Assembly: GCA_030268105.1 (NCBI GenBank)
Contig: BSDZ01000015.1
Coordinates: forward strand, 1 to 64,000
Direction: 5' to 3'
DNA length: 64,000 bases
Source of the DNA: Volvox africanus
Taxonomy: Eukaryota; Chlorophyta; Chlorophyceae; Chlamydomonadales; Volvocaceae
Positions 1 to 41,632 of this stretch are shown here, piece after piece. Numbering within the stretch: the stretch's first letter is position 1; each line of letters starts with the position of its first letter. A program made the translations under genes and the position numbers. The notes below the pieces were generated by a model. It worked only from the letters and a program-made list of their open reading frames with translations. It was not told the DNA's origin and ran no database searches.

Positions 1-1645
1 TATCGGTGCCGTACCTACTTCCCTCCCGATCTCACTCCCTCCCTCCCGTGTGCCCTCCTTTTCCCCCTTCTCCCCCCACCCTCGTTGTTAGGCATGATGG
101 TGGTGCTTTGGTGGTGGCGGTGGTGGTGGCGATGGCGTTCGTGGAGTCGTCGGTGAAAAGGTAAGTATCGGTGCCGTACCTACTTCCCTCCCGATCTCAC
201 TCCCTCCCTCCCGTGTGCCCTCCTTTTCCCCCTTCTCCCCCCACCCTCGTTGTTAGGCATGATGGTGGTGCTTTGGTGGTGGCGGTGGTGATGGCGATGG
301 CGTTCGTGGAGTCGTCGGTGAAAAGGTAAGTATCGGTGCCGTACCTACTTCCCTCCCGATCTCACTCCCTCCCTCCCGTGTGCCCTCCTTTTCCCCCTTC
401 TCCCCCCACCCTCGTTGTTAGGCATGATGGTGGTGCTTTGGTGGTGGCGGTGGTGATGGCGATGGCGTTCTTGGAGTCGTCGGTGAAAAGGTAAGTATCG
501 GTGCCGTACCTACTTCCCTCCCGATCTCACTCCCTCCCTCCCGTGTGCCCTCCTTTTCCCCCTTCTCTCCCCCCCTCGTTGTTAGGCATGATGGTGGTGC
601 TTTGGTGGTGGCGGTGGTGGTGGCGATGGCGTTCGTGGAGTCGTCGGTGAAAAGGTAAGTATCGGTGCCGTACCTACTTCCCTCCCGATCTCACTCCCTC
701 CCTCCCGTGTGCCCTCCTTTTCCCCCTTCTCTCCCCCCCCCTCGTTGTTAGGCATGATGGTGGTGCTTTGGTGGTGGCGGTGGTGGTGGCGATGGCGTTC
801 TTGGAGTCGTCGGTGAAAAGGTAAGTATCGGTGCCGTACCTACTTCCCTCCCGATCTCACTCCCTCCCTCCCGTGTGCCCTCCTTTTCCCCCTTCTCCCC
901 CCCCCCTCGTTGTTAGGCATGATGGTGGTGCTTTGGTGGTGGCGGTGGTGATGGCGATGGCGTTCGTGGAGTCGTCGGTGAAAAGGTAAGTATCGGTGCC
1001 GTACCTACTTCCCTCCCGATCTCACTCCCTCCCTCCCGTGTGCCCTCCTTTTCCCCCTTCTCCTCCCCCCTCGTTGTTAGGCATGATGGTGGTGCTTTGG
1101 TGGTGGCGGTGGTGATGGCGATGGCGTTCGTGGAGTCGTCGGTGAAAAGGTAAGTATCGGTGCCGTACCTACTTCCCTCCCGATCTCCCTCCCTCCCTCC
1201 CGTGTGCCCTCCTTTTCCCCCTTCTCCCCCCCCCCTCGTTGTTAGGCATGATGATGGTGCTTTGGTGGTGGCGGTGGTGATGGCGATGGCGTTCGTGGAG
1301 TCGTCGGTGAAAAGGTAAGTATCGGTGCCGTACCTACTTCCCTCCCGATCTCACTCCCTCCCTCCCGTGTGCCCTCCTTTTCCCCCTTCTCCCCCCCCCC
1401 TCGTTGTTAGGCATGATGATGGTGCTTTGGTGGTGGCGGTGGTGATGGCGATGGCGTTCGTGGAGTCGTCGGTGAAAAGGTAAGTATCGGTGCCGTACCT
1501 ACTTCCCTCCCGATCTCACTCCCTCCCTCCCGTGTGCCCTCCTTTTCCCCCTTCTCCCCCCCCCCCTCGTTGTTAGGCATGATGGTGGTGCTTTGGTGGT
1601 GGCGGTGGTGGTGGCGATGGCGTTCGTGGAGTCGTCGGTGAAAAG
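1..1645 (+). repeat. Tandem exon-intron module array 1 (10 units, left end cut by window)
   Basis: Ten units of 164-166 bp. Each holds an intron that begins GTAAGTATCGG, has a pyrimidine-rich body and ends TTGTTAG, followed by a 69-nt exon. Donor G positions by direct reading: 161, 326, 491, 655, 821, 986, 1150, 1315, 1480 and 1646; all ten are GTAAGT. Length differences lie in the poly-C run before TCGTTGTTAG. Exon differences are substitutions only: GGT/GAT, ATG/GTG and GTG/TTG codons. The order of variants matches the last ten units of array 3, so this is the end of the same array in another 23-kb copy. The last exon splices in frame into gene A. I read this as coding repeat DNA, not an inert satellite, but no transcript evidence is available. 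Confidence 0.9.
1577..1645 (+). CDS. Representative 69-nt repeat exon (last unit before gene A)
   Basis: This is the exon next to gene A and the model for every array unit. It follows TTGTTAG and ends AAAAG before GTAAGT. Of its three frames, one has TGA at the second codon and another reaches TGA after ATGATGGTG or at GTCGGTGA. Only the frame CAT GAT GGT GGT GCT TTG is open. It encodes 23 residues when the split AG|G arginine codon is counted: RHDGGAL, then a run of Val/Ala/Met/Phe, then ESSVK. The introns on both sides are phase 2, so the exon is symmetric: any number can be added or skipped without changing frame. About 13 consecutive residues are hydrophobic, which could be a short membrane or packed helix/strand segment. 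I do not recognise the family. Confidence 0.75.
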
Positions 1646-1732
1646 GTAAGTATCGGTATCCAAACTCCACAGTCTTCAACACCCCGTCCTGATGGCACTT
1701 TCTTAATCTTGCACTCGGTTGCTGAACCACAG

Positions 1733-3257
1733 GACGCTCAAGAGCCTGTGCGCCAACCGCGTCAACCTCTGTGCGGGGACGCCATTTGAGTTTCCGGCAG
1801 CAGCAGCAGCAGCAGCAGCGACAACAACAAAAACTGGCCCAACAGGGTCCACGCCGATGATGACGGGTGGATCTGGGGGTCACCGGAAGGGCACCTGCTC
1901 CGTGGCCACACAGACAGAGGGGTGGATGATGCCACCCCTTACCCAGGGGCCGTCTCGGGAAGATCTAACAGCCTCCGACACACCGTCAGATGCCAGAACG
2001 AGCGGCGATGGCAACATTGGTTTACGTAGTGGCAGCGCGAGGGGCAACGGCTTTGGTGGAGACGGGAGCAGACTGCGCGGTAAGGTCAACAATTACGCGA
2101 TTGCGCCGTCCCTGTTGCGTATGTGGCTGGCAGACTGCAACTTTGAAGGCGCCCGACCGGAGGAGATGGCGGCCGCACTGCCGGCGTTGCAGACTCTCGT
2201 CATACGGCATGTCAGCAAGCAGGAAGACCTGCCATTGCAGCTCATTAAGGCGCTACATTTACTGAAGGTGAGATAGGGGCTCCGAGGGTCAAGCGAAAAT
2301 CGTTAGAACGAAATATCCGACTCCTCACCACACAAAGCCATGGAAGGTAAAGGGGCGGGTAGAGGGACAGGGACAAGCTTAGGGCTTGGGGTATTAGTAA
2401 ATGCCACCTAGGGCAACGCGCCTGCTTCCGGATTGATGTCCCTGTACCGACTGGAACAATAAATCAACTGGGCTGACGTTCATATATTTGGCAGTATATG
2501 AGGGTTTTCGTTATGCCCAGCTCCGTATGAGATTGCGTTTAGGCCTTTGTGTGTTGAGAGGCAGCGTGCCACTGTCCAAAATCAGAACTGCACCCCAAAG
2601 CACCATGAGCCCTTCTTCCTTCTGATACTATAGTACAAATCTCCACTGCGTGAGTTTGGATCCTGCCGTCGCTTGCAACTTCACTTCCTCTACACAGCTG
2701 ATGCCCGACGTGATAGCCCCGGAGAGCGATCGGTCACGGGCGCTGCACGAATCTCTCTGGTGGTGGCGATGGTTGCAGAAGGAGGATTGACCCGCTTACG
2801 CAGTTTGTGGCTTCCGGACTGGGCGGCGCCCCCTCATCAGCTGGTCCAGTGGCAGATGCAGATCGCACAGGTAAGCTTCCTCAGCAGGTCCGCGATTGCC
2901 TCGACCATTTAGCCGATCTCGCCATCCACAGGCGATACCGTGTGTATAGTGTGTAAAATTCATTCGGCTTCTCAAGTCGTATAATAGTTAATGCCTGTAA
3001 AGGCCATGGCATGGATCTCAGTTCTCAGGCGTCGTAGCACCGTATTTCACCTCCTGGGTTCCGCCAGCCTACCGTCAGTGGCCATGCCCTCTTTACTGAC
3101 ACATGCACTCCACTCATACCGATCGCAGATGGCCCCACTGGTGGCGCTCCGTATGGTTGACCACCACTACTTCTGGCGGCTGCCGGCACCCGTTGGTTGT
3201 CCGGAGGTGCAGGACAGACTGCAGTGGTGGGGCTTTGATGCCTGGAACGTGCTGTGA
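1733..3257 (+). CDS. Gene A, copy 1: leucine-rich-repeat-like protein, three exons downstream of the array
   Basis: Exons 1733-2267, 2698-2870 and 3129-3257 (TGA). The 87-nt intron 1646-1732 starts with the array's GTAAGTATCGGT and ends ACCACAG. Splicing AG|G gives the arginine that starts RTLKSLCANRVNL, so the array exons and this exon share one frame. The first exon has 8 alanines, a low-complexity Gly/Ser/Thr linker, then ALPALQTLVIRHVS and LIKALHLLK, which have leucine-rich-repeat spacing. It ends phase 0 at AAG|GTGAG. Exon 2698-2870 opens LMPDVIAPESDRSRAL and closes LTRLRSLWLPDW...QMQIAQ, but the two halves differ by a -1 shift at about 2785-2789 (GAG GAT TGA against TTG ACC). The final exon starts MAPLVALRM and ends FDAWNVL. 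Function unknown; the frame break may mean a decayed gene, recoding or a consensus error. Confidence 0.65.
1797..1820 (+). repeat. Poly-alanine GCA repeat in gene A
   Basis: Seven GCA codons and one GCG encode eight alanines, followed by an ACA-rich threonine stretch. It is identical in copy 2 (24891-24914) and disrupted in the blended copy 3. Confidence 0.9.
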
Positions 3258-3408
3258 CCTGTGCGGATTGGCAGGTGAAAGGAGCGAAGATGCCAGCGAC
3301 CGGACCACTCTGACTCACTTGTTTGCCTCAGTCCCAGCTGAGATTGCTGAATGCTGTGCCGTGCTCAATGCTGGTAGAGTGAGGACATAAATCATGGCTT
3401 CTGCCCTT
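3258..3408. other. Short spacer between gene A and the 205-codon ORF
   Basis: This is the presumed 3' flank of gene A. No AATAAA polyadenylation hexamer is seen; the only similar A-rich stretch is GACATAAATC near 3388. Confidence 0.4.
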
Positions 3409-4026
3409 CTATGCGATGTTGGTTTGTATTGCGTTGTATATATTTGGACGTGCGTCGAGGAATGCCGCAAGATGGGAGGTGCGGGGTTGGAAGTTGTATC
3501 CATAACTGCCCGTAGGTGCGCCGTGTCGTCGTGTTGAGCCTCGAGGCTCGATAAATGCTGCAGATGCCTTGGAGGGAGGGTATTGGTGAATATAGGGTGT
3601 TGCCGCATGCGCTCCGTTAATTGACTGATGTTGATATACCACATCATGTGATGTAGCCTTATGTGCCGTCCCACTTCTTAATGTTTGAGAAGCGAGTTTT
3701 AGCCGAAGTTTAAGGGACAAAGATGTCAAAGATCTGACCGCTAGCCTGGATGTGGGGAGGGGACTTGGATGAGCGCAAAGTGGCACCGACGCGGCAATCC
3801 AACGGCTTGCATGTTCGACCTGGTTGACCAACGCATTCACGGTCCATGCTTGACCTGTACCCGGTGCGGCGGTATCCCCCACACGACTACACAAGGATAA
3901 CAAATGGCGCACGTGTGAAAGCATGAGTGCGTTACACATCATTGTGAGTACAGCATCAGGGATACTTCCCACGTTAGCAACCATACCCGCTTTCACCGCA
4001 CCGACGGCTCCACCATCCAGTGCCAT
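3409..4026 (-). CDS. Hypothetical 205-codon ORF, intact form
   Basis: An ATG-started frame beginning MALDGGAVGAVKAG and ending NAIQTNIA. It has a moderately hydrophobic N-terminal third with Cys and His (MMCNALML, HVRHLLSLCS) and a basic, Ser/Thr-rich remainder. No family recognised. It is intact here and in copy 2. In copy 3 and every 4.28-kb unit it is split by a 2.5-kb insertion after the codons for TVNA and also shifted by an extra C (GCATGCGCTCC becomes GCATGCCGCTCC). That loss gives no sign of selection for the frame, so it could be a chance ORF. Another minus frame, 3993-4217 (MGSLEGFIPSIPS), overlaps its start and may be an upstream exon. Confidence 0.4.
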   Translation of the reverse strand: MALDGGAVGAVKAGMVANVGSIPDAVLTMMCNALMLSHVRHLLSLCSRVGDTAAPGTGQAWTVNALVNQVEHASRWIAASVPLCAHPSPLPTSRLAVRSLTSLSLKLRLKLASQTLRSGTAHKATSHDVVYQHQSINGAHAATPYIHQYPPSKASAAFIEPRGSTRRHGAPTGSYGYNFQPRTSHLAAFLDARPNIYNAIQTNIA

Positions 4027-4230
4027 GCACTACCGTGTGTCCCACATGCCTCGTGCCCAACACAAGCCTTAAGAACGGCACCTGGTCCCCGTCCGCCGGG
4101 ATATGCCCGTTTGCCAGTGGTCGGTGAAGGTGCGACAAACACCGCACCCCACAACCACGGTATCACCCTGAACAGGATGGACGGAATACTGGGAATGAAG
4201 CCTTCCAGGCTACCCATATCTGCAGCTAAG

Positions 4231-4884
4231 AGACCTAGGCCTCATTCCACGGTGGCACCAGCCATCTACCATGGCCCCATGGCCACTCTGTGTGTGCAGA
4301 ATTCTATATTGCGCAGGTTATGATCAGCCAAAGACCTAACACCCTAACTCCACCTCACATGCACCACACCACCCCTATTTGATTCACCTTCGCAAAAAGC
4401 ACCGTAAGCAAATACACACAGATACAGGACTGCTCTGCTGCGGGCCTTGACGAAACACCCTTCAACCTGGGGCAGTAGTCCCCCCGCCATCATCGCCGCA
4501 ATTTCAAATCTGCCTTGATGTCAGATGGGATAGCTACGGACACGGGTCTGGGGTCGTAGGCGTTCAGAGTTGTGGCCTCGCAGGCGCATCCGGACTCGTA
4601 GCTCAGCTTGGCGGTTCCCAAGATGCGGTAGCTTTGGAGATAGGAGATCTGCGGTAACGGAGAGGGGTGGGCGGCGGATGTGCGGGGATGTGTACCCCGT
4701 ATACGTAATTACCTAGCTGCAATAGAAGTCGCGTGCGTGTGTGTGTGGAACGGTAAAAGGCAACTGTAGGGGTAAGGCAATGCAGAGCAGGGCAGAAATA
4801 AAACGGGAATTATGTCAAGTTTGGTTGAGGGCGACGAAGCTACCACCTCGCAAAGTGACCATCCCATCCAGACCGCCCAGACGC
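4231..4884. other. No convincing gene
   Basis: Between the homology breakpoint shared with the 4.28-kb unit (4230/4231) and the 477-codon frame I see only a short GT run (about 4734-4746) and small overlapping frames. The plus frame 4741-5085 is mostly a shadow of the minus-strand ORF. Confidence 0.5.
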
Positions 4885-6327
4885 TTAAAGGGACATCCCC
4901 AACCCCCCCCCAACCAAGCTCTCAACCATGTGTGCACTTCCTACCGTGGCAGCGTTAGCGCATTGCCGGCCGTCACTGTCCCCGCCATCTCGCCCGCCCA
5001 TTTCATACTGGCCCTCCTGATTCCCCCGGCCATACTCCCCAGCGCGGCCCTGCTGCGTCTCGGGCACCTTCGAAACACTTTTTGAAGCTTCACAGGGCAC
5101 CACAGCAATGCTTGCGGCATACCCCACTGACAAAATGCCCACGTCTCGAGGTGCGAGCGGCAAATTTGGCAATAGCCTGGCAGGCGGCGCCACCATGGGG
5201 CGCTGCATCTCGCTCCCCTCATCCAGGCAGCGTGAACCAGTGGCCCCCTCTCTGCTGGAGCCTTCACGCTGAAACTGGAGCTCCTGTGCGGCGGTGGAGA
5301 TGCTGGGCGCTGTAGACGGCCAGCTGTTCGGCAGCTTACTGCGACTCAGATGGGAAAAGCGTCTCCTCGCTTCCTCCAGCGCGGCCATCATCCGTCGGCG
5401 ACCAGCCGCGGCACGAGCCAGCGCCAAAGCGTGAACTGAATCCGTGCATAACAAACCACCCTCTGAGCTGAAAGCTGCCACGGGAGGGATAAGCCAGAAT
5501 AATGGAGATACAAGACGGTACTTCTGCTTAACATGTCCGCCGACAGGTTGGCCAGACTTCGGCGCTACCGTTGGAAAAGGAGTATTGCCCACAAAGGATG
5601 TGATGAAAGAGCTGGAGGGGAAACAGCCAGATGCATCGCTAATGGAAGCGTCCGTTTCCACTGCCTGTGCCAAATCAGCATTAGCGATGGGCGCTGGAGC
5701 TATTGCACCGCCCGAAATGCAACATGACGCAAAGTAAGCTGGCGTGACCGGAAGAGGGGGCGTGCCTGCATCCATCAAAACCAGCACTTCCACAGTAGCC
5801 GCAGAACAGATAATTGCGCCGCTTGTTTGAAACGTCACACTCTTGGCCTTTCAACGACCTTCACAGGCTGCCTTCGGCTGTGAAAGAGCAGAGCGCCTTG
5901 ACAGGCGGCCCGCTGGCCGGAGCTGCCCACGGGGTGGGTCCAGTATCATAAAAGACGGAGTATGAATGCTATGCGGGCTATGAAGGCTGCACGGCTCATA
6001 ACCGCCTGCAAGTCGGTCATCGTCGCTCCAGTCTGAACTACTGGGAAAGCACCTGCCGTCGCTGTCTCTATCACTGTCGGCGTGTGAGCTGCCTTGACTG
6101 CTGGAGGCGCTGCCCCCGGTGCTGCACGTGGAGCCCATATCGCCGCGCTCATCGACCAGACAGCAAGTACTACTACTGATGTAGCCGCAGATCATAGTGC
6201 CATGCGCGCCACCCAGCGCTGGCACGTGGCATGTTGATGGCGAGGCCGGAACAACGGGCTGTGCTGCTGCTGCAACGTCTAAATGATCCTCATAATATTG
6301 TCGTTGATAAGGACATGTATTAAGCGC
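4885..6327 (-). CDS. Long minus-strand frame with one internal TGA (about 477 codons open), unknown function
   Basis: The frame is open from the codon after a stop at 6328-6330 down to TAA at 4885-4887, with a single in-frame TGA at 5851-5853. The upstream part (to 6327) has a run of four Ala, then acidic Ser/Asp-rich DRDSDGR and SSDWSDDDRLAGG. The downstream part has ALARAAAGRRRMMAALEEAR (helical, basic) and a Gly/Arg-rich tail. No ATG opens the downstream part until VLVLMDAG; an apparent start at 5838 is GTG. Either the TGA lies in an intron I cannot place, or two exons abut, or the gene is broken. A CTTCACAG/CTGTGAAAG inverted repeat (5863-5890) lies next to the stop. No domain recognised. 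Confidence 0.4.
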
Positions 6328-6330
6328 TTA

Positions 6331-6566
6331 CATCTGCGGCGAAGAGCACGAAATTAGCAGCATCCCATCACAGACATAACGATAAAGAGGACAACAGGCA
6401 TATGTATACTGAATCTAATAATCAAGACGATATCAAACGCATTACATCTTCGTCCCTGAAGATTACAGCGCCACCATCGAGACGCCGACACCCCGTGACT
6501 CACCCGTGTGCTCTAATCCCTAGGCGCTGACATATGATGTTATGAAGATAGGTCAATCCAGCCCAA
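6331..6566. other. AT-richer intergenic stretch
   Basis: This lies between divergently oriented candidates (minus frame ending 6327, plus exon at 6567). The composition is visibly richer in A/T than its surroundings. No defined promoter motif identified. Confidence 0.4.
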
Positions 6567-6752
6567 ATGAAGCACAGTAATAATGTATTGGCAAGATTCA
6601 TACCGCCAACACCGCCTCCTGCAGCCAACAGCTCACCATGTAATAACAATGATGTTAACGTTCATTTAGCTCAAGTTGGAGTGAATAGGGTTATTAAGTG
6701 TTACATCATCATTGCGCCCAGGATGTGGGAGGTGATCGCAAAGCTCAAAAAG
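6567..6752 (+). CDS. Possible first exon, Asn/Pro-rich protein, copy 1
   Basis: A true ATG opens MKHSNNVLARFIPPTPPPA, continues through an Asn-rich stretch (CNNNDVNV) and ends IAKLKK exactly at a phase-0 donor, AAAAAG|GTAATATCG. In-frame translation past the donor reaches TGA at 6803. Sixty-two codons before the donor. I could not identify the next exon with confidence; a frame from 7139 (MRKQRLPKGMAATTWQ) on the same strand is one candidate. No family recognised. Confidence 0.4.
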
Positions 6753-7393
6753 GTAATATCGTGCTCAGTGAACGTATTAAACGGCGTTATTCATGGATAC
6801 TGAAAAGATGATCATCCGACACATTTTCTGTTCAGCCGCACGCGAAGCGAAATTAATTTAAAAGGAGGTCTATACCAATCCATCACATCGGACCATGTCG
6901 TAAATCCCATTGAAAGTATGGAAAGTTGTAACAGACCTAAATTTAGGCAATAGAAACAACGCTCTATGCCGCACGTTCGCCTGCGAAAGTCCACTGCGAA
7001 AATTTTCATTTCGACGGCCGCCTGTTATGATACACATTTGATATTTTGCCGTCTAGCACCATATCATCACGTAACGTGCTGACCTTAAACCGATGACTGA
7101 AAGATCACAGAGGATGATGCCGTTTTAGCATTACGTACATGCGCAAACAACGCCTTCCCAAAGGCATGGCTGCTACGACCTGGCAGGTAGCGTCCCTGTT
7201 GACCGCCATATGTAGCTTCACACGGCCAACCCGGGGGAGCAAACTTTTAAGCCGCGCGCTTGCTCGATCCTGCAATCCAAGCGAATCCACAGAACGACGT
7301 TGGTTGAATTCGGCCTTAATCAGGCATAGTAGAAGTATGGCACTCACTTGGAGCATGCAGGCAGACTGCCGTTGTCTCTTCAAAGTCGTTTCC
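6753..7393. other. Unresolved region with overlapping small frames
   Basis: A plus frame (7139-7399) and a minus frame (7105-7431) oppose each other. The minus frame has a plausible donor after MLQ (CAA|GTGAGT). I cannot choose between them. The first part (6800-7080) is AT-rich with no frame of note. Confidence 0.35.
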
Positions 7394-7453
7394 CCCTGAA
7401 ACCCTATCCTTAAGGCCCCTGAGAATGTCACACATGAGAATCTTACCTGAACG
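7394..7453. repeat. 60-bp dispersed repeat, site 1 (copy of an intron 5' end)
   Basis: Sixty bases from CCCTGAAACC to CTGAACG are identical to 9889-9948. On the minus strand both read ...CGTTCAG|GTAAGATTCTCATG, a strong 5' splice site followed by the start of an intron. The flanks differ completely. Confidence 0.9.
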
Positions 7454-7859
7454 CCATAACTAACAAAACAAAGGATGCGATGGCTCAGTCAGTGAGATCG
7501 TCCCGCGCGAACTGGTAGCAACCGAAGTCGCTTACTCTACTACTTCTCTGTTCTCGTACCTAGCACCGTCCTTGAACACCCAGACTATAGGGAGCCTTTT
7601 GCTGCGTCACATGCCTGGAGTATTTCAAGATTTCGAGGTTCATAAGAAGTACCCTGGGGCTTGACCCCGAAGCCTGGGACATGCGCTTCTAAAAGAACCC
7701 GAATTTTCTCTGCCACCAAATACCGCGGTATATATAAACGACCAAACCGTCCCTCGTGCCCAACATAATGCTTTTAAATAGGCAATGGCCTTTGACTGTG
7801 CAGATTGTTTTATCCAAACCCCTACCTTTTTGCAACAACCAGCGCAATCTTGCACATAC
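7454..7859. other. No assignable gene; probable intron of the minus-strand gene at 7860-8168
   Basis: On the minus strand this follows the donor at 7854-7859. No further exon could be chosen. Confidence 0.35.
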
Positions 7860-8168
7860 CTGGAAATCCGCTACTCGCATCAACGGCACGCCTCTCTCCT
7901 CCGCCATAAAGCTCGCTCCCACGCAGCCCCACGCCCCCGCCAGCCGCAAGTCCCCGCTTTGAACCCAAGTTGGGGGCGGGTTCTGCTTCCCATTCCAGTC
8001 CAAGGCGCTGCCGGAGTCAAACTCGGTCCTGCTTATGATCGACTCTACCCCGGGTACCGATGCTGACACCCTGGTATGGTCAGCGTGACCAGATGTAGCC
8101 CCATCCTTACCACCAAACCCAACATCACCACTTCCGTTGTACAGAGCTGCCAGGAAGCGTTTCCACAT
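7860..8168 (-). CDS. Exon of an unidentified minus-strand gene, copy 1
   Basis: One hundred and three codons from MWKRFLAALYNGSGD to LMRVADFQ, ending phase 0 at a strong donor (TTTCCAG|GTATGTGC). Read-through past the donor stops at 7689. The frame stays open upstream of the methionine to about 8235 (PICGGYRRDGCHG), so the true exon may start further up, for example after CTGTCAG near 8213. Gly-rich N-terminal segment, two Cys, Trp-containing middle. No family recognised. Confidence 0.4.
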
Positions 8169-8213
8169 CCCGTGACATCCATCACGGCGGTATCCGCCAC
8201 AGATGGGACCTGA

Positions 8214-13441: not shown

Positions 13442-13504
13442 CAGCAAGTTGTTTCACTTGGATTACAATTACACATGAAGCCAGTTGTTGTTTTCCAGTC
13501 TGGG

Positions 13505-13650: not shown

Positions 13651-13985
13651 GTCAGGAGGTGAAAACATCGGCCACTACGGAAACGACCACCAAGAACGCC
13701 ACCGCCACCGCCGCCACCAACGCCACCAACGCCATAACCGCCATCACCGCTACCACCGCTACCGCCTTCACCACCGCCACCACGGCGACCGACGCCAAGA
13801 CCGCCAACACCGCCTCCATCGCCGCCGTACCGCCATGTCCGCCCCCACAGCCATCATGGCCACCAACGCTGTAAGTATCCTGGGGTATCTACGGGTAGTG
13901 CTCATTATTGGACCTTATACTGACATTTTTCGATTTGGCCTTTGCAGGCGGACACAACAGAGATACACCAATGAAATGAAAACAG
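13651..13985 (+). CDS. Thr/Ala-rich exon and short downstream exon, block copy 1
   Basis: Exon 13651-13870 (after TCAATTCAG, before GTAAGTATCC) reads EVKTSATTETTTKN, then Ala/Thr-rich, ending PPCPPPQPSWPPTL in one frame. A second frame is His/Arg-rich, so the frame is not certain. Exon 13948-13985 follows TTTGCAG, continues the first frame as RTQQRYTNEMKT, and ends at CAG|GTACGT in phase 1. That phase does not match the array exons (phase 2), so direct splicing into the array would break frame. It lies 3' of gene D and may be part of the same transcript. Low-complexity ACC/GCC repeat origin is obvious. Confidence 0.35.
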
Positions 13986-14065: not shown

Positions 14066-15710
14066 TTAAGTATCGGTGCCGTACCTACTTCCCTCCCGAT
14101 CTCACTCCCTCCCTCCAGTGTGCCCTCCTTTTCCCCCTTCTCCCCCCCCCTCGTTGTTAGGCATGATGGTGGTGCTTTGGTGGTGGCGGTGGTGATGGCG
14201 ATGGCGTTCTTGGAGTCGTCGGTGAAAAGGTAAGTATCGGTGCCGTACCTACTTCCCTCCCGATCTCACTCCCTCCCTCCCGTGTGCCCTCCTTTTCCCC
14301 CTTCTCCCCCCCCCCCTCGTTGTTAGGCATGATGGTGGTGCTTTGGTGGTGGCGGTGGTGATGGCGATGGCGTTCGTGGAGTCGTCGGTGAAAAAATAAG
14401 TATCGGTGCCGTACCTACTTCCCTCCCGATCTCACTCCCTCCCTCCCGTGTGCCCTCCTTTTCCCCCTTCTCCCCCCCCCCTCGTTGTTAGGCATGATGG
14501 TGGTGCTTTGGTGGTGGCGGTGGTGATGGCGATGGCGTTCGTGGAGTCGTCGGTGAAAAGGTAAGTATCGGTGCCGTACCTACTTCCCTCCCGATCTCAC
14601 TCCCTCCCTCCCGTGTGCCCTCCTTTTCCCCCTTCTCCCCCCCCCTCGTTGTTAGGCATGATGGTGGTGCTTTGGTGGTGGCGGTGGTGGTGGCGATGGC
14701 GTTCTTGGAGTCGTCGGTGAAAAGGTAAGTATCGGTGCCGTACCTACTTCCCTCCCGATCTCACTCCCTCCCTCCCGTGTGCCCTCCTTTTCCCCCTTCT
14801 CCTCCCCCCCTCGTTGTTAGGCATGATGGTGGTGCTTTGGTGGTGGCGGTGGTGATGGCGATGGCGTTCGTGGAGTCGTCGGTGAAAAGGTAAGTATCGG
14901 TGCCGTACCTACTTCCCTCCCGATCTCACTCCCTCCCTCCCGTGTGCCCTCCTTTTCCCCCTTCTCCCCCCCCCTCGTTGTTAGGCATGATGGTGGTGCT
15001 TTGGTGGTGGCGGTGGTGGTGGCGATGGCGTTCGTGGAGTCGTCGGTGAAAAGGTAAGTATCGGTGCCGTACCTACTTCCCTCCCGATCTCACTCCCTCC
15101 CTCCCGTGTGCCCTCCTTTTCCCCCTTCTCCCCCCCCCTCGTTGTTAGGCATGATGGTGGTGCTTTGGTGGTGGCGGTGGTGGTGGCGATGGCGTTCGTG
15201 GAGTCGTCGGTGAAAAAATAAGTATCGGTGCCGTACCTACTTCCCTCCCGATCTCACTCCCTCCCTCCCGTGTGCCCTCCTTTTCCCCCTTCTCCCCCCC
15301 CCTCGTTGTTAGGCATGATGGTGGTGCTTTGGTGGTGGCGGTGGTGATGGCGATGGCGTTCGTGGAGTCGTCGGTGAAAAGGTAAGTATCGGTGCCGTAC
15401 CTACTTCCCTCCCGATCTCACTCCCTCCCTCCCGTGTGCCCTCCTTTTCCCCCTTCTCCCCCCCCCCTCGTTGTTAGGCATGATGGTGGTGCTTTGGTGG
15501 TGGCGGTGGTGATGGCGATGGCGTTCTTGGAGTCGTCGGTGAAAAAATAAGTATCGGTGCCGTACCTACTTCCCTCCCGATCTCACTCCCTCCCTCCCGT
15601 GTGCCCTCCTTTTCCCCCTTCTCCCCCCCCCTCGTTGTTAGGCATGATGGTGGTGCTTTGGTGGTGGCGGTGGTGATGGCGATGGCGTTCGTGGAGTCGT
15701 CGGTGAAAAG
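14066..15710 (+). repeat. Tandem exon-intron module array 2 (10 units)
   Basis: Starts at the junction ACATTAGGGTTAAGTATCGG and ends at GTAAGTATCGGT joined to the second block copy (15723). Three of ten units have AAAAAATAAG instead of AAAAGGTAAG at the exon end (donors at 14396, 15218 and 15547), which removes the GT donor and puts TAA in frame right after AAA AAA. The first unit has CCAGTG where others have CCCGTG. No gene A copy follows this array. Confidence 0.9.
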
Positions 15711-16417
15711 GTAAGTATCGGTAAATAATTCGGCGTGCGTGGGTGCATTCAGTTTAAAGTTTTCGTTTGGGTGGACGCATATATGTGTGCGTGGTGGGTA
15801 CCTGTGTGAACCACCTGCTACTACTCGCTGAATCGCAAGAGACTAAGTGGAACGCATCTAGCATTGCGTGAGAGACAGGGGAAAGGACAAGCGAGCGATT
15901 ACACGCTTATCACAAATGCTAACATCCATTTCCTTCATTGTAATTTACCCCATTATGGATAACACGCGTATCATATAATTCATGCTGTTAACTTCATTTT
16001 AAAATCAGAATTCCTGCGTGGTAAAGCCCCAACCGGCCCGACTCTTGATGGGCCTTATCTAGCGCTGCGTATCTATACATGCATGGCAGCCGAATATCTA
16101 TACACTGCACTAAAAAGCGCCGCCCTCTTATCCATCCCAACTTACAGGTCACGAGGGACTTGGTTTGATGGCCCAGCTGCACCTCTGACCCCCCTCCTGG
16201 CGCCTCCTCCCCGCTGAGTGCCTCCTGAAGGGGGCGTGGGCATGATGGACATCACAACGTTGAAGTGGAGGGTGGCAGCTTAATATGATGGGCAGTTTAG
16301 TTCAGCCGTGGATCTTAGCCGCTTCCCTAAGAGGATGGGTCATGTCGGGCGTGCTTCCATGTCCGCCCTCAAATATCTCCCTTGTCCGTATTCCGATATG
16401 CGAATCAGTCGGTGTTG

Positions 16418-18974: not shown

Positions 18975-21900
18975 TTAAGTATCGGTGCCGTACCTACTTC
19001 CCTCCCGATCTCACTCCCTCCCTCCAGTGTGCCCTCCTTTTCCCCCTTCTCCCCCCCCCTCGTTGTTAGGCATGATGGTGGTGCTTTGGTGGTGGCGGTG
19101 GTGATGGCGATGGCGTTCTTGGAGTCGTCGGTGAAAAGGTAAGTATCGGTGCCGTACCTACTTCCCTCCCGATCTCACTCCCTCCCTCCCGTGTGCCCTC
19201 CTTTTCCCCCTTCTCCCCCCCCCCCTCGTTGTTAGGCATGATGGTGGTGCTTTGGTGGTGGCGGTGGTGATGGCGATGGCGTTCGTGGAGTCGTCGGTGA
19301 AAAAATAAGTATCGGTGCCGTACCTACTTCCCTCCCGATCTCACTCCCTCCCTCCCGTGTGCCCTCCTTTTCCCCCTTCTCCCCCCCCCTCGTTGTTAGG
19401 CATGATGGTGGTGCTTTGGTGGTGGCGGTGGTGATGGCGATGGCGTTCGTGGAGTCGTCGGTGAAAAGGTAAGTATCGGTGCCGTACCTACTTCCCTCCC
19501 GATCTCACTCCCTCCCTCCCGTGTGCCCTCCTTTTCCCCCTTCTCCCCCCCCCCTCGTTGTTAGGCATGATGGTGGTGCTTTGGTGGTGGCGGTGGTGAT
19601 GGCGATGGCGTTCTTGGAGTCGTCGGTGAAAAGGTAAGTATCGGTGCCGTACCTACTTCCCTCCCGATCTCACTCCCTCCCTCCCGTGTGCCCTCCTTTT
19701 CCCCCTTCTCCCCCCCCCCCTCGTTGTTAGGCATGATGGTGGTGCTTTGGTGGTGGCGGTGGTGATGGCGATGGCGTTCGTGGAGTCGTCGGTGAAAAAA
19801 TAAGTATCGGTGCCGTACCTACTTCCCTCCCGATCTCACTCCCTCCCTCCCGTGTGCCCTCCTTTTCCCCCTTCTCCCCCCCCCTCGTTGTTAGGCATGA
19901 TGGTGGTGCTTTGGTGGTGGCGGTGGTGATGGCGATGGCGTTCGTGGAGTCGTCGGTGAAAAGGTAAGTATCGGTGCCGTACCTACTTCCCTCCCGATCT
20001 CACTCCCTCCCTCCCGTGTGCCCTCCTTTTCCCCCTTCTCCCCCCCCCTCGTTGTTAGGCATGATGGTGGTGCTTTGGTGGTGGCGGTGGTGATGGCGAT
20101 GGCGTTCTTGGAGTCGTCGGTGAAAAGGTAAGTATCGGTGCCGTACCTACTTCCCTCCCGATCTCACTCCCTCCCTCCCGTGTGCCCTCCTTTTCCCCCT
20201 TCTCCTCCCCCCTCGTTGTTAGGCATGATGGTGGTGCTTTGGTGGTGGCGGTGGTGATGGCGATGGCGTTCGTGGAGTCGTCGGTGAAAAGGTAAGTATC
20301 GGTGCCGTACCTACTTCCCTCCCGATCTCACTCCCTCCCTCCCGTGTGCCCTCCTTTTCCCCCTTCTCCCCCCCCCTCGTTGTTAGGCATGATGGTGGTG
20401 CTTTGGTGGTGGCGGTGGTGGTGGCGATGGCGTTCGTGGAGTCGTCGGTGAAAAGGTAAGTATCGGTGCCGTACCTACTTCCCTCCCGATCTCACTCCCT
20501 CCCTCCCGTGTGCCCTCCTTTTCCCCCTTCTCCCCCCCCCTCGTTGTTAGGCATGATGGTGGTGCTTTGGTGGTGGCGGTGGTGGTGGCGATGGCGTTCG
20601 TGGAGTCGTCGGTGAAAAAATAAGTATCGGTGCCGTACCTACTTCCCTCCCGATCTCACTCCCTCCCTCCCGTGTGCCCTCCTTTTCCCCCTTCTCCCCC
20701 CCCCTCGTTGTTAGGCATGATGGTGGTGCTTTGGTGGTGGCGGTGGTGATGGCGATGGCGTTCGTGGAGTCGTCGGTGAAAAGGTAAGTATCGGTGCCGT
20801 ACCTACTTCCCTCCCGATCTCACTCCCTCCCTCCCGTGTGCCCTCCTTTTCCCCCTTCTCCCCCCCCCCTCGTTGTTAGGCATGATGGTGGTGCTTTGGT
20901 GGTGGCGGTGGTGATGGCGATGGCGTTCTTGGAGTCGTCGGTGAAAAGGTAAGTATCGGTGCCGTACCTACTTCCCTCCCGATCTCACTCCCTCCCTCCC
21001 GTGTGCCCTCCTTTTCCCCCTTCTCCCCCCCCCTCGTTGTTAGGCATGATGGTGGTGCTTTGGTGGTGGCGGTGGTGATGGCGATGGCGTTCGTGGAGTC
21101 GTCGGTGAAAAGGTAAGTATCGGTGCCGTACCTACTTCCCTCCCGATCTCACTCCCTCCCTCCCGTGTGCCCTCCTTTTCCCCCTTCTCCCCCCCCCCTC
21201 GTTGTTAGGCATGATGGTGGTGCTTTGGTGGTGGCGGTGGTGATGGCGATGGCGTTCTTGGAGTCGTCGGTGAAAAGGTAAGTATCGGTGCCGTACCTAC
21301 TTCCCTCCCGATCTCACTCCCTCCCTCCCGTGTGCCCTCCTTTTCCCCCTTCTCCCCCCCCCCTCGTTGTTAGGCATGATGGTGGTGCTTTGGTGGTGGC
21401 GGTGGTGATGGCGATGGCGTTCGTGGAGTCGTCGGTGAAAAGGTAAGTATCGGTGCCGTACCTACTTCCCTCCCGATCTCACTCCCTCCCTCCCGTGTGC
21501 CCTCCTTTTCCCCCTTCTCCCCCCCCCTCGTTGTTAGGCATGATGGTGGTGCTTTGGTGGTGGCGGTGGTGGTGGCGATGGCGTTCGTGGAGTCGTCGGT
21601 GAAAAGGTAAGTATCGGTGCCGTACCTACTTCCCTCCCGATCTCACTCCCTCCCTCCCGTGTGCCCTCCTTTTCCCCCTTCTCCCCCCCCCCCCCCTCGT
21701 TGTTAGGCATGATGGTGGTGCTTTGGTGGTGGCGGTGGTGATGGCGATGGCGTTCGTGGAGTCGTCGGTGAAAAGGTAAGTATCGGTGCCGTACCTACTT
21801 CCCTCCCGATCTCACTCCCTCCCTCCCGTGTGCCCTCCTTTTCCCCCTTCTCCCCCCCCCTCGTTGTTAGGCATGATGGTGGTGCTTTGGTGGTGGCGGT

Positions 21901-24739
21901 GGTGGTGGCGATGGCGTTCTTGGAGTCGTCGGTGAAAAGGTAAGTATCGGTGCCGTACCTACTTCCCTCCCGATCTCACTCCCTCCCTCCCGTGTGCCCT
22001 CCTTTTCCCCCTTCTCCCCCCCCCTCGTTGTTAGGCATGATGGTGGTGCTTTGGTGGTGGCGGTGGTGGTGGCGATGGCGTTCGTGGAGTCGTCGGTGAA
22101 AAGGTAAGTATCGGTGCCGTACCTACTTCCCTCCCGATCTCACTCCCTCCCTCCCGTGTGCCCTCCTTTTCCCCCTTCTCCCCCCCCCTCGTTGTTAGGC
22201 ATGATGGTGGTGCTTTGGTGGTGGCGGTGGTGGTGGCGATGGCGTTCGTGGAGTCGTCGGTGAAAAGGTAAGTATCGGTGCCGTACCTACTTCCCTCCCG
22301 ATCTCACTCCCTCCCTCCCGTGTGCCCTCCTTTTCCCCCTTCTCCCCCCACCCTCGTTGTTAGGCATGATGGTGGTGCTTTGGTGGTGGCGGTGGTGATG
22401 GCGATGGCGTTCGTGGAGTCGTCGGTGAAAAGGTAAGTATCGGTGCCGTACCTACTTCCCTCCCGATCTCACTCCCTCCCTCCCGTGTGCCCTCCTTTTC
22501 CCCCTTCTCCCCCCCCCTCGTTGTTAGGCATGATGGTGGTGCTTTGGTGGTGGCGGTGGTGGTGGCGATGGCGTTCTTGGAGTCGTCGGTGAAAAGGTAA
22601 GTATCGGTGCCGTACCTACTTCCCTCCCGATCTCACTCCCTCCCTCCCGTGTGCCCTCCTTTTCCCCCTTCTCCCCCCCCCCTCGTTGTTAGGCATGATG
22701 GTGGTGCTTTGGTGGTGGCGGTGGTGATGGCGATGGCGTTCGTGGAGTCGTCGGTGAAAAGGTAAGTATCGGTGCCGTACCTACTTCCCTCCCGATCTCA
22801 CTCCCTCCCTCCCGTGTGCCCTCCTTTTCCCCCTTCTCCCCCCCCCTCGTTGTTAGGCATGATGGTGGTGCTTTGGTGGTGGCGGTGGTGATGGCGATGG
22901 CGTTCGTGGAGTCGTCGGTGAAAAGGTAAGTATCGGTGCCGTACCTACTTCCCTCCCGATCTCACTCCCTCCCTCCCGTGTGCCCTCCTTTTCCCCCTTC
23001 TCCCCCCCCCCTCGTTGTTAGGCATGATGGTGGTGCTTTGGTGGTGGCGGTGGTGGTGGCGATGGCGTTCTTGGAGTCGTCGGTGAAAAGGTAAGTATCG
23101 GTGCCGTACCTACTTCCCTCCCGATCTCACTCCCTCCCTCCCGTGTGCCCTCCTTTTCCCCCTTCTCCCCCCACCCTCGTTGTTAGGCATGATGGTGGTG
23201 CTTTGGTGGTGGCGGTGGTGGTGGCGATGGCGTTCGTGGAGTCGTCGGTGAAAAGGTAAGTATCGGTGCCGTACCTACTTCCCTCCCGATCTCACTCCCT
23301 CCCTCCCGTGTGCCCTCCTTTTCCCCCTTCTCCCCCCACCCTCGTTGTTAGGCATGATGGTGGTGCTTTGGTGGTGGCGGTGGTGATGGCGATGGCGTTC
23401 GTGGAGTCGTCGGTGAAAAGGTAAGTATCGGTGCCGTACCTACTTCCCTCCCGATCTCACTCCCTCCCTCCCGTGTGCCCTCCTTTTCCCCCTTCTCCCC
23501 CCACCCTCGTTGTTAGGCATGATGGTGGTGCTTTGGTGGTGGCGGTGGTGATGGCGATGGCGTTCTTGGAGTCGTCGGTGAAAAGGTAAGTATCGGTGCC
23601 GTACCTACTTCCCTCCCGATCTCACTCCCTCCCTCCCGTGTGCCCTCCTTTTCCCCCTTCTCTCCCCCCCTCGTTGTTAGGCATGATGGTGGTGCTTTGG
23701 TGGTGGCGGTGGTGGTGGCGATGGCGTTCGTGGAGTCGTCGGTGAAAAGGTAAGTATCGGTGCCGTACCTACTTCCCTCCCGATCTCACTCCCTCCCTCC
23801 CGTGTGCCCTCCTTTTCCCCCTTCTCTCCCCCCCCCTCGTTGTTAGGCATGATGGTGGTGCTTTGGTGGTGGCGGTGGTGGTGGCGATGGCGTTCTTGGA
23901 GTCGTCGGTGAAAAGGTAAGTATCGGTGCCGTACCTACTTCCCTCCCGATCTCACTCCCTCCCTCCCGTGTGCCCTCCTTTTCCCCCTTCTCCCCCCCCC
24001 CTCGTTGTTAGGCATGATGGTGGTGCTTTGGTGGTGGCGGTGGTGATGGCGATGGCGTTCGTGGAGTCGTCGGTGAAAAGGTAAGTATCGGTGCCGTACC
24101 TACTTCCCTCCCGATCTCACTCCCTCCCTCCCGTGTGCCCTCCTTTTCCCCCTTCTCCTCCCCCCTCGTTGTTAGGCATGATGGTGGTGCTTTGGTGGTG
24201 GCGGTGGTGATGGCGATGGCGTTCGTGGAGTCGTCGGTGAAAAGGTAAGTATCGGTGCCGTACCTACTTCCCTCCCGATCTCCCTCCCTCCCTCCCGTGT
24301 GCCCTCCTTTTCCCCCTTCTCCCCCCCCCTCGTTGTTAGGCATGATGATGGTGCTTTGGTGGTGGCGGTGGTGATGGCGATGGCGTTCGTGGAGTCGTCG
24401 GTGAAAAGGTAAGTATCGGTGCCGTACCTACTTCCCTCCCGATCTCACTCCCTCCCTCCCGTGTGCCCTCCTTTTCCCCCTTCTCCCCCCCCCCTCGTTG
24501 TTAGGCATGATGATGGTGCTTTGGTGGTGGCGGTGGTGATGGCGATGGCGTTCGTGGAGTCGTCGGTGAAAAGGTAAGTATCGGTGCCGTACCTACTTCC
24601 CTCCCGATCTCACTCCCTCCCTCCCGTGTGCCCTCCTTTTCCCCCTTCTCCCCCCCCCCCTCGTTGTTAGGCATGATGGTGGTGCTTTGGTGGTGGCGGT
24701 GGTGGTGGCGATGGCGTTCGTGGAGTCGTCGGTGAAAAG
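18975..24739 (+). repeat. Tandem exon-intron module array 3 (about 35 units)
   Basis: The longest array. I count 35 exon ends, with the last donor at 24740. Units 2, 5 and 10 carry the donor-destroying AAAAAATAAG (19305, 19800 and 20620). The 25 units from about 20621 to 24739 all keep the GTAAGT donor, TTGTTAG acceptor and a 69-nt open exon, enough for 575 residues if all are spliced. The poly-C run varies between units (shortest near 24160, longest near 21690). The array joins in frame to gene A copy 2. Confidence 0.9.
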
Positions 24740-24826
24740 GTAAGTATCGGTATCCAAACTCCACAGTCTTCAACACCCCGTCCTGATGGCACTTTCTTAA
24801 TCTTGCACTCGGTTGCTGAACCACAG

Positions 24827-37300: not shown

Positions 37301-40300
37301 TTAAGTATCGGTGCCGTACCTACTTCCCTCCCGATCTCACTCCCTCCCTCCAGTGTGCCCTCCTTTTCCCCCTTCTCCCCCCCCCCTCGTTGTTAGGCAT
37401 GATGGTGGTGCTTTGGTGGTGGCGGTGGTGGTGGCGATGGCGTTCGTGGAGTCGTCGGTGAAAAGGTAAGTATCGGTGCCGTACCTACTTCCCTCCCGAT
37501 CTCACTCCCTCCCTCCCGTGTGCCCTCCTTTTCCCCCTTCTCCCCCCCCCCTCGTTGTTAGGCATGATGGTGGTGCTTTGGTGGTGGCGGTGGTGATGGC
37601 GATGGCGTTCTTGGAGTCGTCGGTGAAAAGGTAAGTATCGGTGCCGTACCTACTTCCCTCCCGATCTCACTCCCTCCCTCCCGTGTGCCCTCCTTTTCCC
37701 CCTTCTCCCCCCCCCCCCTCGTTGTTAGGCATGATGGTGGTGCTTTGGTGGTGGCGGTGGTGATGGCGATGGCGTTCGTGGAGTCGTCGGTGAAAAAATA
37801 AGTATCGGTGCCGTACCTACTTCCCTCCCGATCTCACTCCCTCCCTCCCGTGTGCCCTCCTTTTCCCCCTTCTCCCCCCCCCTCGTTGTTAGGCATGATG
37901 GTGGTGCTTTGGTGGTGGCGGTGGTGATGGCGATGGCGTTCGTGGAGTCGTCGGTGAAAAGGTAAGTATCGGTGCCGTACCTACTTCCCTCCCGATCTCA
38001 CTCCCTCCCTCCCGTGTGCCCTCCTTTTCCCCCTTCTCCCCCCCCCCTCGTTGTTAGGCATGATGGTGGTGCTTTGGTGGTGGCGGTGGTGATGGCGATG
38101 GCGTTCTTGGAGTCGTCGGTGAAAAGGTAAGTATCGGTGCCGTACCTACTTCCCTCCCGATCTCACTCCCTCCCTCCCGTGTGCCCTCCTTTTCCCCCTT
38201 CTCCCCCCCCCCCTCGTTGTTAGGCATGATGGTGGTGCTTTGGTGGTGGCGGTGGTGATGGCGATGGCGTTCGTGGAGTCGTCGGTGAAAAAATAAGTAT
38301 CGGTGCCGTACCTACTTCCCTCCCGATCTCACTCCCTCCCTCCCGTGTGCCCTCCTTTTCCCCCTTCTCCCCCCCCCTCGTTGTTAGGCATGATGGTGGT
38401 GCTTTGGTGGTGGCGGTGGTGATGGCGATGGCGTTCGTGGAGTCGTCGGTGAAAAGGTAAGTATCGGTGCCGTACCTACTTCCCTCCCGATCTCACTCCC
38501 TCCCTCCCGTGTGCCCTCCTTTTCCCCCTTCTCCCCCCCCCTCGTTGTTAGGCATGATGGTGGTGCTTTGGTGGTGGCGGTGGTGGTGGCGATGGCGTTC
38601 TTGGAGTCGTCGGTGAAAAGGTAAGTATCGGTGCCGTACCTACTTCCCTCCCGATCTCACTCCCTCCCTCCCGTGTGCCCTCCTTTTCCCCCTTCTCCCC
38701 CCCCCTCGTTGTTAGGCATGATGGTGGTGCTTTGGTGGTGGCGGTGGTGATGGCGATGGCGTTCGTGGAGTCGTCGGTGAAAAGGTAAGTATCGGTGCCG
38801 TACCTACTTCCCTCCCGATCTCACTCCCTCCCTCCCGTGTGCCCTCCTTTTCCCCCTTCTCCCCCCCCCTCGTTGTTAGGCATGATGGTGGTGCTTTGGT
38901 GGTGGCGGTGGTGGTGGCGATGGCGTTCTTGGAGTCGTCGGTGAAAAGGTAAGTATCGGTGCCGTACCTACTTCCCTCCCGATCTCACTCCCTCCCTCCC
39001 GTGTGCCCTCCTTTTCCCCCTTCTCCCCCCCCCTCGTTGTTAGGCATGATGGTGGTGCTTTGGTGGTGGCGGTGGTGATGGCGATGGCGTTCGTGGAGTC
39101 GTCGGTGAAAAGGTAAGTATCGGTGCCGTACCTACTTCCCTCCCGATCTCACTCCCTCCCTCCCGTGTGCCCTCCTTTTCCCCCTTCTCTCCCCCCCCCT
39201 CGTTGTTAGGCATGATGGTGGTGCTTTGGTGGTGGCGGTGGTGATGGCGATGGCGTTCGTGGAGTCGTCGGTGAAAAGGTAAGTATCGGTGCCGTACCTA
39301 CTTCCCTCCCGATCTCACTCCCTCCCTCCCGTGTGCCCTCCTTTTCCCCCTTCTCCCCCCCCCTCGTTGTTAGGCATGATGGTGGTGCTTTGGTGGTGGC
39401 GGTGGTGATGGCGATGGCGTTCGTGGAGTCGTCGGTGAAAAGGTAAGTATCGGTGCCGTACCTACTTCCCTCCCGATCTCACTCCCTCCCTCCCGTGTGC
39501 CCTCCTTTTCCCCCTTCTCCCCCCCCCCTCGTTGTTAGGCATGATGGTGGTGCTTTGGTGGTGGCGGTGGTGATGGCGATGGCGTTCTTGGAGTCGTCGG
39601 TGAAAAGGTAAGTATCGGTGCCGTACCTACTTCCCTCCCGATCTCACTCCCTCCCTCCCGTGTGCCCTCCTTTTCCCCCTTCTCCCCCCCCCCTCGTTGT
39701 TAGGCATGATGGTGGTGCTTTGGTGGTGGCGGTGGTGATGGCGATGGCGTTCGTGGAGTCGTCGGTGAAAAAGTAAGTATCGGTGCCGTACCTACTTCCC
39801 TCCCGATCTCACTCCCTCCCTCCCGTGTGCCCTCCTTTTCCCCCTTCTCCCCCCCCCTCGTTGTTAGGCATGATGGTGGTGCTTTGGTGGTGGCGGTGGT
39901 GATGGCGATGGCGTTCGTGGAGTCGTCGGTGAAAAGGTAAGTATCGGTGCCGTACCTACTTCCCTCCCGATCTCACTCCCTCCCTCCCGTGTGCCCTCCT
40001 TTTCCCCCTTCTCCCCCCCCCTCGTTGTTAGGCATGATGGTGGTGCTTTGGTGGTGGCGGTGGTGGTGGCGATGGCGTTCTTGGAGTCGTCGGTGAAAAG
40101 GTAAGTATCGGTGCCGTACCTACTTCCCTCCCGATCTCACTCCCTCCCTCCCGTGTGCCCTCCTTTTCCCCCTTCTCCCCCCCCCTCGTTGTTAGGCATG
40201 ATGGTGGTGCTTTGGTGGTGGCGGTGGTGATGGCGATGGCGTTCGTGGAGTCGTCGGTGAAAAGGTAAGTATCGGTGCCGTACCTACTTCCCTCCCGATC

Positions 40301-41632
40301 TCACTCCCTCCCTCCCGTGTGCCCTCCTTTTCCCCCTTCTCCCCCCCCCCTCGTTGTTAGGCATGATGGTGGTGCTTTGGTGGTGGCGGTGGTGATGGCG
40401 ATGGCGTTCGTGGAGTCGTCGGTGAAAAAGTAAGTATCGGTGCCGTACCTACTTCCCTCCCGATCTCACTCCCTCCCTCCCGTGTGCCCTCCTTTTCCCC
40501 CTTCTCCCCCCCCCTCGTTGTTAGGCATGATGGTGGTGCTTTGGTGGTGGCGGTGGTGATGGCGATGGCGTTCTTGGAGTCGTCGGTGAAAAGGTAAGTA
40601 TCGGTGCCGTACCTACTTCCCTCCCGATCTCACTCCCTCCCTCCCGTGTGCCCTCCTTTTCCCCCTTCTCCCCCCCCCCCTCGTTGTTAGGCATGATGGT
40701 GGTGCTTTGGTGGTGGCGGTGGTGATGGCGATGGCGTTCGTGGAGTCGTCGGTGAAAAAGGTAAGTATCGGTGCCGTACCTACTTCCCTCCCGATCTCAC
40801 TCCCTCCCTCCCGTGTGCCCTCCTTTTCCCCCTTCTCCCCCCCCCCTCGTTGTTAGGCATGATGGTGGTGCTTTGGTGGTGGCGGTGGTGATGGCGATGG
40901 CGTTCGTGGAGTCGTCGGTGAAAAGGTAAGTATCGGTGCCGTACCTACTTCCCTCCCGATCTCACTCCCTCCCTCCCGTGTGCCCTCCTTTTCCCCCTTC
41001 TCCCCCCCCCTCGTTGTTAGGCATGATGGTGGTGCTTTGGTGGTGGCGGTGGTGATGGCGATGGCGTTCGTGGAGTCGTCGGTGAAAAGGTAAGTATCGG
41101 TGCCGTACCTACTTCCCTCCCGATCTCACTCCCTCCCTCCCGTGTGCCCTCCTTTTCCCCCTTCTCCCCCCCCCTCGTTGTTAGGCATGATGGTGGTGCT
41201 TTGGTGGTGGCGGTGGTGATGGCGATGGCGTTCGTGGAGTCGTCGGTGAAAAGGTAAGTATCGGTGCCGTACCTACTTCCCTCCCGATCTCACTCCCTCC
41301 CTCCCGTGTGCCCTCCTTTTCCCCCTTCTCCCCCCCCCTCGTTGTTAGGCATGATGGTGGTGCTTTGGTGGTGGCGGTGGTGATGGCGATGGCGTTCGTG
41401 GAGTCGTCGGTGAAAAGGTAAGTATCGGTGCCGTACCTACTTCCCTCCCGATCTCACTCCCTCCCTCCCGTGTGCCCTCCTTTTCCCCCTTCTCCCCCCC
41501 CCCCTCGTTGTTAGGCATGATGGTGGTGCTTTGGTGGTGGCGGTGGTGATGGCGATGGCGTTCGTGGAGTCGTCGGTGAAAAGGTAAGTATCGGTGCCGT
41601 ACCTACTTCCCTCCCGATCTCACTCCCTCCCT
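37301..41632 (+). repeat. Tandem exon-intron module array 4 (about 26 units)
   Basis: Same left junction as arrays 2 and 3. Units 3 and 6 have AAAAAATAAG (37798 and 38293). Two units have the last exon base changed G to A but keep GT (39772 and 40429). One unit has an extra A (exon of 70 nt, donor at 40761), the only exon length change I found in any array. The final unit stops at CTCCCTCCCT and runs into the blended region. Confidence 0.9.

Follow-up and report, generated by a model that had tools for sequence, protein, structure and literature searches.

The stretch of DNA analyzed here (hereafter the window) is the first 64 kb, that is, the end, of contig C15, a 3.98-Mb contig of Volvox africanus (Thai strain). 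Genome searches covered 141.0 Mb in 126 contigs. The assembly of Thai strain 1101-NZ-11 is described in PMC10291315 as 141.0 Mb in 129 contigs, built from PacBio reads with Canu and polished with Pilon, and for the regions studied in that paper stranded RNA-seq from the Thai strain was turned into gene models with StringTie and TransDecoder. Since long arrays in an assembly of this type may contain collapsed copies and small indels, copy numbers are given throughout as assembled.

Tandem Repeats Finder (TRF) located four arrays of a 165-bp unit in the window, with 10.0, 10.1, 35.1 and 26.3 copies, respectively, and a match of 97-98%, in agreement with an initial annotation of this DNA that had counted about 80 units in four arrays. 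The arrays lie beside an exon of a gene family (designated exon A) that is matched by three deposited V. africanus proteins, VaNZ11_012076, VaNZ11_012015 and VaNZ11_010803 (contigs C76, C75 and C41), of which VaNZ11_012015 is referred to as P0002; P0001 and P0003 are likewise deposited proteins. The features are as follows, with a slash marking an exon boundary.

1..1657, + strand: array 1, 10 units of 165 bp (TRF and sequence); cut by the contig end, exon A next
1577..1645, + strand: 69-nt segment of the last unit of array 1 (HDGGALVVAVVVAMAFVESSVKR plus the next G); its counterpart is an exon in P0002
1646..1732, + strand: intron from the last unit to exon A, GTAAGTATCGGTATCC...CCACAG; its C75 counterpart is removed in P0002
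1733..2267, + strand: exon A, open and in frame with the 69-nt segment (R/TLKSLCANRVNL...LLK)
2698..2790, + strand: next exon according to P0001 (LMPDVI...WLQKED, stop); the leucine-rich frame of a relative on contig C11 is apparently broken here
13948..13985, + strand: 38-nt exon-like segment upstream of array 2 (GCGGACACAACAG...AAAACAG/GTACGTAATAG), frame read by eye
14067..14077, + strand: 5' word TAAGTATCGGT with GGGT before it, where array 2 begins; in the ancestral unit the opposite end is formed by the donor word
14067..15722, + strand: array 2, 10 units (TRF); stops at the breakpoint of a 4.9-kb duplication
18976..24751, + strand: array 3, 35 units (TRF); exon A next, at 24827
37302..41632, + strand: array 4, 26 units (TRF); runs into a scrambled stretch
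42189..42249, + strand: lone degenerate unit with a 61-nt segment; TTGTTAG and donor retained

The initial annotation had read the units as an intragenic exon amplification; the four arrays do not lie in one gene copy, and an undamaged exon A follows only arrays 1 and 3. In the scrambled stretch (41632-42700) the locus is present in an indel-rich form, with a single degenerate unit and an exon A that is damaged and has 5 stops, unlike the near-identical other copies.

The window holds several further repeats. Within 1-38960 there is a 23-kb segmental duplication (1-9067 vs 23096-32161, 99.97%) that carries an array, and a 4.9-kb tandem duplication (10814-15722 vs 15723-20631) carries another. 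A 141-bp CA/TGCA-repeat segment at 32021-32302 stands twice in tandem in one copy of the 23-kb duplication and once in the other. From 43686 to 64000 runs a tandem repeat with a period of 4.26-4.29 kb, carrying the last exon of the same gene, its 3' part and a (GGACGG)n run; the last exon recurs at similar spacing on C15 to ~142 kb, and also on contigs C96 and C97. No Rfam family and no tRNA were found in the window. A mobile element was considered and rejected, as nine window open reading frames gave no Pfam match save a weak, below-cut-off one on a simple-repeat frame. Long TTTTAGGG runs, of the kind known as the Chlamydomonas telomere repeat, stand at the starts of C19 and C20 and also on C44 (among the matches listed, 100 of 234 places). 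A subtelomeric location is not claimed, since the ends of C75 and C76, where read, do not consist of telomere repeat, even though arrays are situated near the ends of contigs.

The 165-bp unit and the adjoining exon

Each unit consists of the donor GTAAGTATC, a C-rich tract, the acceptor-like TTGTTAG/G and a 69-nt segment open in a single frame (G/CAT GAT GGT ... AAA AG). This architecture, proposed in the initial annotation, was confirmed by TRF and by a strict pattern, and the CTCAC word is present in the consensus, its A being altered in 6/330 units. The length is not uniformly 165 bp as had been supposed, but varies from 164 to 166 bp through the C run. In the window the strict pattern recovered 72 units, of which 70 have a 69-nt segment, one has 70 nt and one 61 nt, and the putative introns between them are 95-97 nt long, with one of 100. 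Ten neighbor gaps are one unit longer (259-262 nt), because the intervening unit has lost its GT (8 cases) or has a changed last exon base (2 cases). The segment is phase-symmetric, as the initial annotation had it, and its frame continues into exon A. Across the genome, the segment start plus TTGTTAG gave 1,085 matches at up to 1 mismatch, while the reversed control gave 0. The first 16.3 kb of contig C6 alone holds 99 matched units with one gap; at C32:904 kb the copy number is 3.

A set of 330 units was drawn from 21 of 22 non-overlapping stretches, and 305 of them combine AG and GT with an open frame and a length that is a multiple of three. Among the others, the donor is dead in 10 units and the acceptor in 8, the latter all from two C76 loci, and the frame is shifted in 7, of which 6 lie at the start of C6. 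The AG is invariant across the 322 TTAG-type units. The length is divisible by three in 323 units, although such lengths may also be expected from slippage in the GTG/GGC-rich stretch.

Array 3' ends, lone units included, were found at 19 places, and in 18 of these exon A comes next, the exception being locus L048. The unit directly before the 19 exon A copies is an intact 69-nt TTAG-type unit in 14 cases and a CGG-type unit (TGTCGG for TGTTAGG) in 3; of the remaining two, one is a damaged 61-nt unit and the other is cut off. Exon A itself is stop-free in 15/17 full copies, the other 2 being damaged, and its length differences of 3 and 93 nt are both in frame. With the scrambled copy (C15:42328) dropped, the other 16 full copies show 12 nonsynonymous and 7 synonymous changes and no clear signal of selection on exon A; the expected synonymous share of 0.262 was computed with the scrambled copy included.

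The gene family has a distant relative on contig C11 that reads as a leucine-rich repeat protein and matches a leucine-rich repeat repebody chain (E 0.0013); leucine-rich repeat models stay below cut-off for both P0003 and the C11 relative. In exon 2 the apparently broken frame is identical in 15/15 copies found, and P0001 ends in that exon. We therefore take the family to be decaying, with transcripts likely still made.

Evidence on splicing of the unit and on coding constraint

Splicing of one unit to the next would join GTGAAAAG to GCATGATGG (AAAAG/GCATGATGG), and splicing of the last unit to exon A would join GTGAAAAG to GACGCTCA, while an unspliced read-through has the sequence TCGTTGTTAG. 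P0002 is a partial protein of 118 aa, with two members on C75, and reads PPLVV-R-HDGGALVVAVVMAMAFVESSVKR-TLKSLCANRVNL. Its first 31 residues correspond to the last unit from within the C-rich tract, and the remainder is exon A; since it begins PPLVVRHDGG, upstream of TTGTTAG, the donor AAAAG/GTAAG is used and the putative acceptor TTGTTAG is unused in the P0002 gene model. The exon use envisaged in the initial annotation is therefore borne out for the in-frame joint between the last unit and exon A, and fails at the acceptor, through which P0002 reads. P0001 and P0003 link exon A to two different next exons, and all three proteins start or finish within exons, as assembled transcripts do. Removal of three different introns in the three deposited proteins suggests that these loci are transcribed.

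Proteins with two units were sought with a seven-unit query in the range of 89-282 aa, and none turned up among the 7,994 candidates with the most words in common with it; P0002, which has a single unit, was the only protein recovered from these. Searches of the genome that allowed 2 mismatches gave no processed unit-unit joint and, likewise, no processed joint between unit and exon A. Since the latter joint occurs in a deposited protein yet lacks a genomic copy, the absence of processed copies is weak evidence.

Variation among the units was examined for traces of coding constraint. The 8 CGG-type C76 units were left out of the variant and codon counts, unit positions 71-87 (the C run) were left out of the intron variant count, and the 11 units that are not 69 nt long were left out of the codon count. 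Variants per site amounted to 0.377 in the 69-nt segment vs 0.321 in the intron outside the C run (322 units). Third codon positions were the least variable (3/22 sites vs 18/44, P = 0.028), which is the opposite of the expectation under coding constraint. A count by codon, made on the 311 units whose segment is 69 nt long, gave 17 nonsynonymous changes and 3 synonymous ones, with 5.9 synonymous expected (P = 0.12), so that no constraint was detected from these few independent changes. The same units contain 0 stops, a count with little power as only ~0.5 stop-making changes were expected. An apparent nonsynonymous excess in a single-site count (20 nonsynonymous, 2 stop, 2 synonymous, P = 0.014) was dropped after the codon recount; of its two "stops", one proved to be just one of two bases that changed together to give E, and the other comes from a unit with a shifted frame. 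The proposal that every unit is a working module encoding a run of 23-residue repeats is thus unsupported by the search of the best 7,994 protein candidates, the genomic joints at this threshold and the codon counts (at low power), and the units with a dead donor or shifted frame also speak against it, as does the lack of the AG in single-copy and sister units described below.

A single-unit locus and the AG acceptor

At 266 kb on C15, on the minus strand, lies a locus (L044) with a single unit, in which a 172-bp segment stands between two 11-bp words TAAGTATCGGT, one of which is the donor. The layout is ...GGGT TAAGTATCGGT GCCGTACC ... TTGTCGGCGATGATGG ... GTGAAAAGG TAAGTATCGGT ATCC ... exon A. 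The internal junction of the arrays, AAAAGG TAAGTATCGGT GCCGTACC, is the product expected from a tandem duplication between words of this kind. We read this locus as probably unexpanded: its unit departs from those of the arrays both in sequence and in length (78 nt), which makes contraction from an array the less likely history.

The single-unit locus lacks TTGTTAG and has TGTCGG in place of TGTTAGG, as do 8/8 C76 units of the unit set. Genome-wide, the TGTCGG type was found at 2,374 places at up to 1 mismatch, the single-unit locus included. GT and AG bound the stretch between copies in TTAG-type units, and the CGG-type units are without the AG; the TTGTTAG acceptor of the initial annotation stands for the TTAG-type array units and is missing from the single-copy and sister units and the wider family. 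On grounds of parsimony, its absence from the single-unit locus, the C76 units and the larger related family makes the AG likely to be derived. Since TGTCGG-type places outnumber TTGTTAG matches (2,374 vs 1,085), the AG was unneeded for amplification.

A second exon-intron-like repeat lies beside the 165-bp one at L061 (C15:145.7-148.7 kb) and L083 (C32:83.7-86.7 kb), in the form of 543/660-bp tandem modules in which a threonine/alanine-rich segment from upstream and its intron are combined with the 38-nt segment. With up to 3 mismatches allowed, their junctions match at 256 places, a number that includes array starts, and the modules read have TGTCGG, without AG. The 38-nt segment was rejected as the exon preceding the array, its open frame (read by eye) being out of phase with the 69-nt segment. 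Large related repeats built from the same blocks occur at L098, C23:2.18-2.23 Mb and C36:0.54-0.69 Mb. Among the matches listed they are regularly spaced, often at 860-876 or 1,234-1,251 bp; L098, the sole such stretch read, is of the TGTCGG type and lacks both an AG acceptor and a donor leading to exon A.

A frame fitting exon A is open through the tract for 88 codons in C76 and for 67 codons at the single-unit locus. Openness of the C76 kind was reached by 80 of 2,000 dinucleotide shuffles (4%), by which measure the tract may possibly once have been coding sequence. Among the 150 of 6,123 candidates that were scored, there was no relative outside the repeat family.

Interpretation of the arrays

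Our preferred explanation, held with somewhat better than even confidence, is that the arrays are young and satellite-like, expanded from a 165-base gene segment whose end coincides exactly with the splice donor of an exon, and that their exon-intron look is likely inherited and not selected for coding. Recombination between the pair of 11-base words TAAGTATCGGT on either side of the segment likely gave rise to the unit. Repeated unequal exchange would then have multiplied it, up to the tens of units at the start of C6, and a change from TGTCGG to TGTTAGG would have completed the AG acceptor in the lineage that formed the 165-bp arrays. Upstream of its last unit the array would remain mostly unspliced or untranslated, within a leucine-rich-repeat-like gene family that is decaying. 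Units that are nearly identical and stand head to tail in long arrays are what the window (~81 units) and the genome present. In favor of the satellite explanation we count the single-unit locus with both words, the TGTCGG found there and in the C76 units, modules and related places, the start of P0002 upstream of TTGTTAG followed by its use of the donor, the broken frame in exon 2, the lack of detected coding constraint (at low power) and the amplification of other pieces, namely the 543/660-bp modules, the 4.26-4.29-kb repeat and the 23-kb and 4.9-kb duplications. Against it we count the 305/330 intact units, the 0 stops and the invariant AG, which young age and homogenization also explain, as well as the open exon A in 15/17 full copies and the intact TTAG-type unit before 14/19 exon A copies. 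The 88-codon open frame in C76 likewise counts against it, as it would make the tract former coding sequence.

Some of these observations would be expected of a functional tandem-exon gene, in which the units are spliced together to encode consecutive hydrophobic repeats of 23 residues, the run being longer or shorter according to copy number. The symmetric 69-nt segments with one open frame in the phase of exon A, the intact units, the 0 stops in 311 units of 69 nt and the last unit spliced to exon A in P0002 all speak for such a gene. We nevertheless find it doubtful, since P0002 runs through the acceptor, the seven-unit query gave nothing but P0002 in its size range among the best 7,994 candidates, the genome search allowing 2 mismatches gave no processed unit-unit joint, coding constraint was undetected (at low power), the upstream 38-nt segment is out of phase and the copy number ranges from 3 to 99 matched units. 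At the other extreme, the open frame and splice signals might be wholly irrelevant, in an untranscribed satellite of a repeat region. Nested tandem repeats and duplications in the same regions agree with this, but the three deposited proteins with three different introns removed suggest transcripts and make it quite improbable.

The origin of the AG allows a further reading, in which introns were born in bulk: the duplication would have put a real donor before former coding sequence, the gain of the AG would have made a putative removable intron of each copy, and extra copies, then neutral to the transcript, would have left the array free to grow. The frame open through the tract in the phase of exon A, for 88 codons in C76 and 67 at L044, and the missing AG at that single-copy locus agree with it, but the openness is matched by 4% of shuffles and the AG is not needed for amplification, the TGTCGG type being commoner; we regard it as unlikely. 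An intron-making satellite, in which recombination at a splice donor multiplied the end of an exon and the step from TGTCGG to TGTTAGG gave about a thousand newborn putative introns and symmetric exons in one gene family, likewise has a small chance of being right. If it is, each added unit could be spliced or skipped without frame loss, so that the array would grow freely as a reservoir of length-variable exons.

Spider silk genes and schistosome micro-exon genes are built of near-identical exon-intron units with symmetric exons that evolve in concert, and they encode expressed repeat proteins. The Volvox array shares the units, the symmetry and the concerted evolution with them; unlike them, it gave no unit-unit joint in the searches above and no detected coding constraint. 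Satellite DNA derived from gene fragments is head-to-tail, homogenized and present in many copies of several related unit types, as is the family described here, whose unit differs from such satellites in general by ending at a splice donor used in a gene model and by staying beside the same exon. A title-level search for Volvox satellite or exon arrays returned, among the papers listed, no title on the 165-bp family. In the intron gain by tandem duplication reported for potato, as here, the duplicated stretch crosses an exon-intron boundary, the copied sequence supplies the splice signals and the stretch between the copies acquires intron borders; L044, with its one unit and no TTGTTAG, would be the copy before duplication. 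As reported, the potato case is one duplication with the new intron detected in that gene, whereas here there are more than 1,000 copies, the AG likely came later and the introns are putative. Introners are described as transposable elements that create introns (PMC9860276), and bulk intron birth here would resemble them in giving many introns of one sequence. Unlike introners, the 165-bp unit was not seen dispersed into unrelated genes: 18/19 array 3' ends enter exon A, and growth is in tandem at one place.

Overall, these arrays are a caution that exon-intron modules may look perfect in an array and yet represent inherited signals, not a working gene. One genome presents a graded series of one unit, three, seven, ten and tens, in which the recombination words and the acceptor-completing step are readable. 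The series makes it testable whether introns can be created in bulk by tandem duplication at a splice site, and whether spliceability may aid the spread of a satellite inside a gene.
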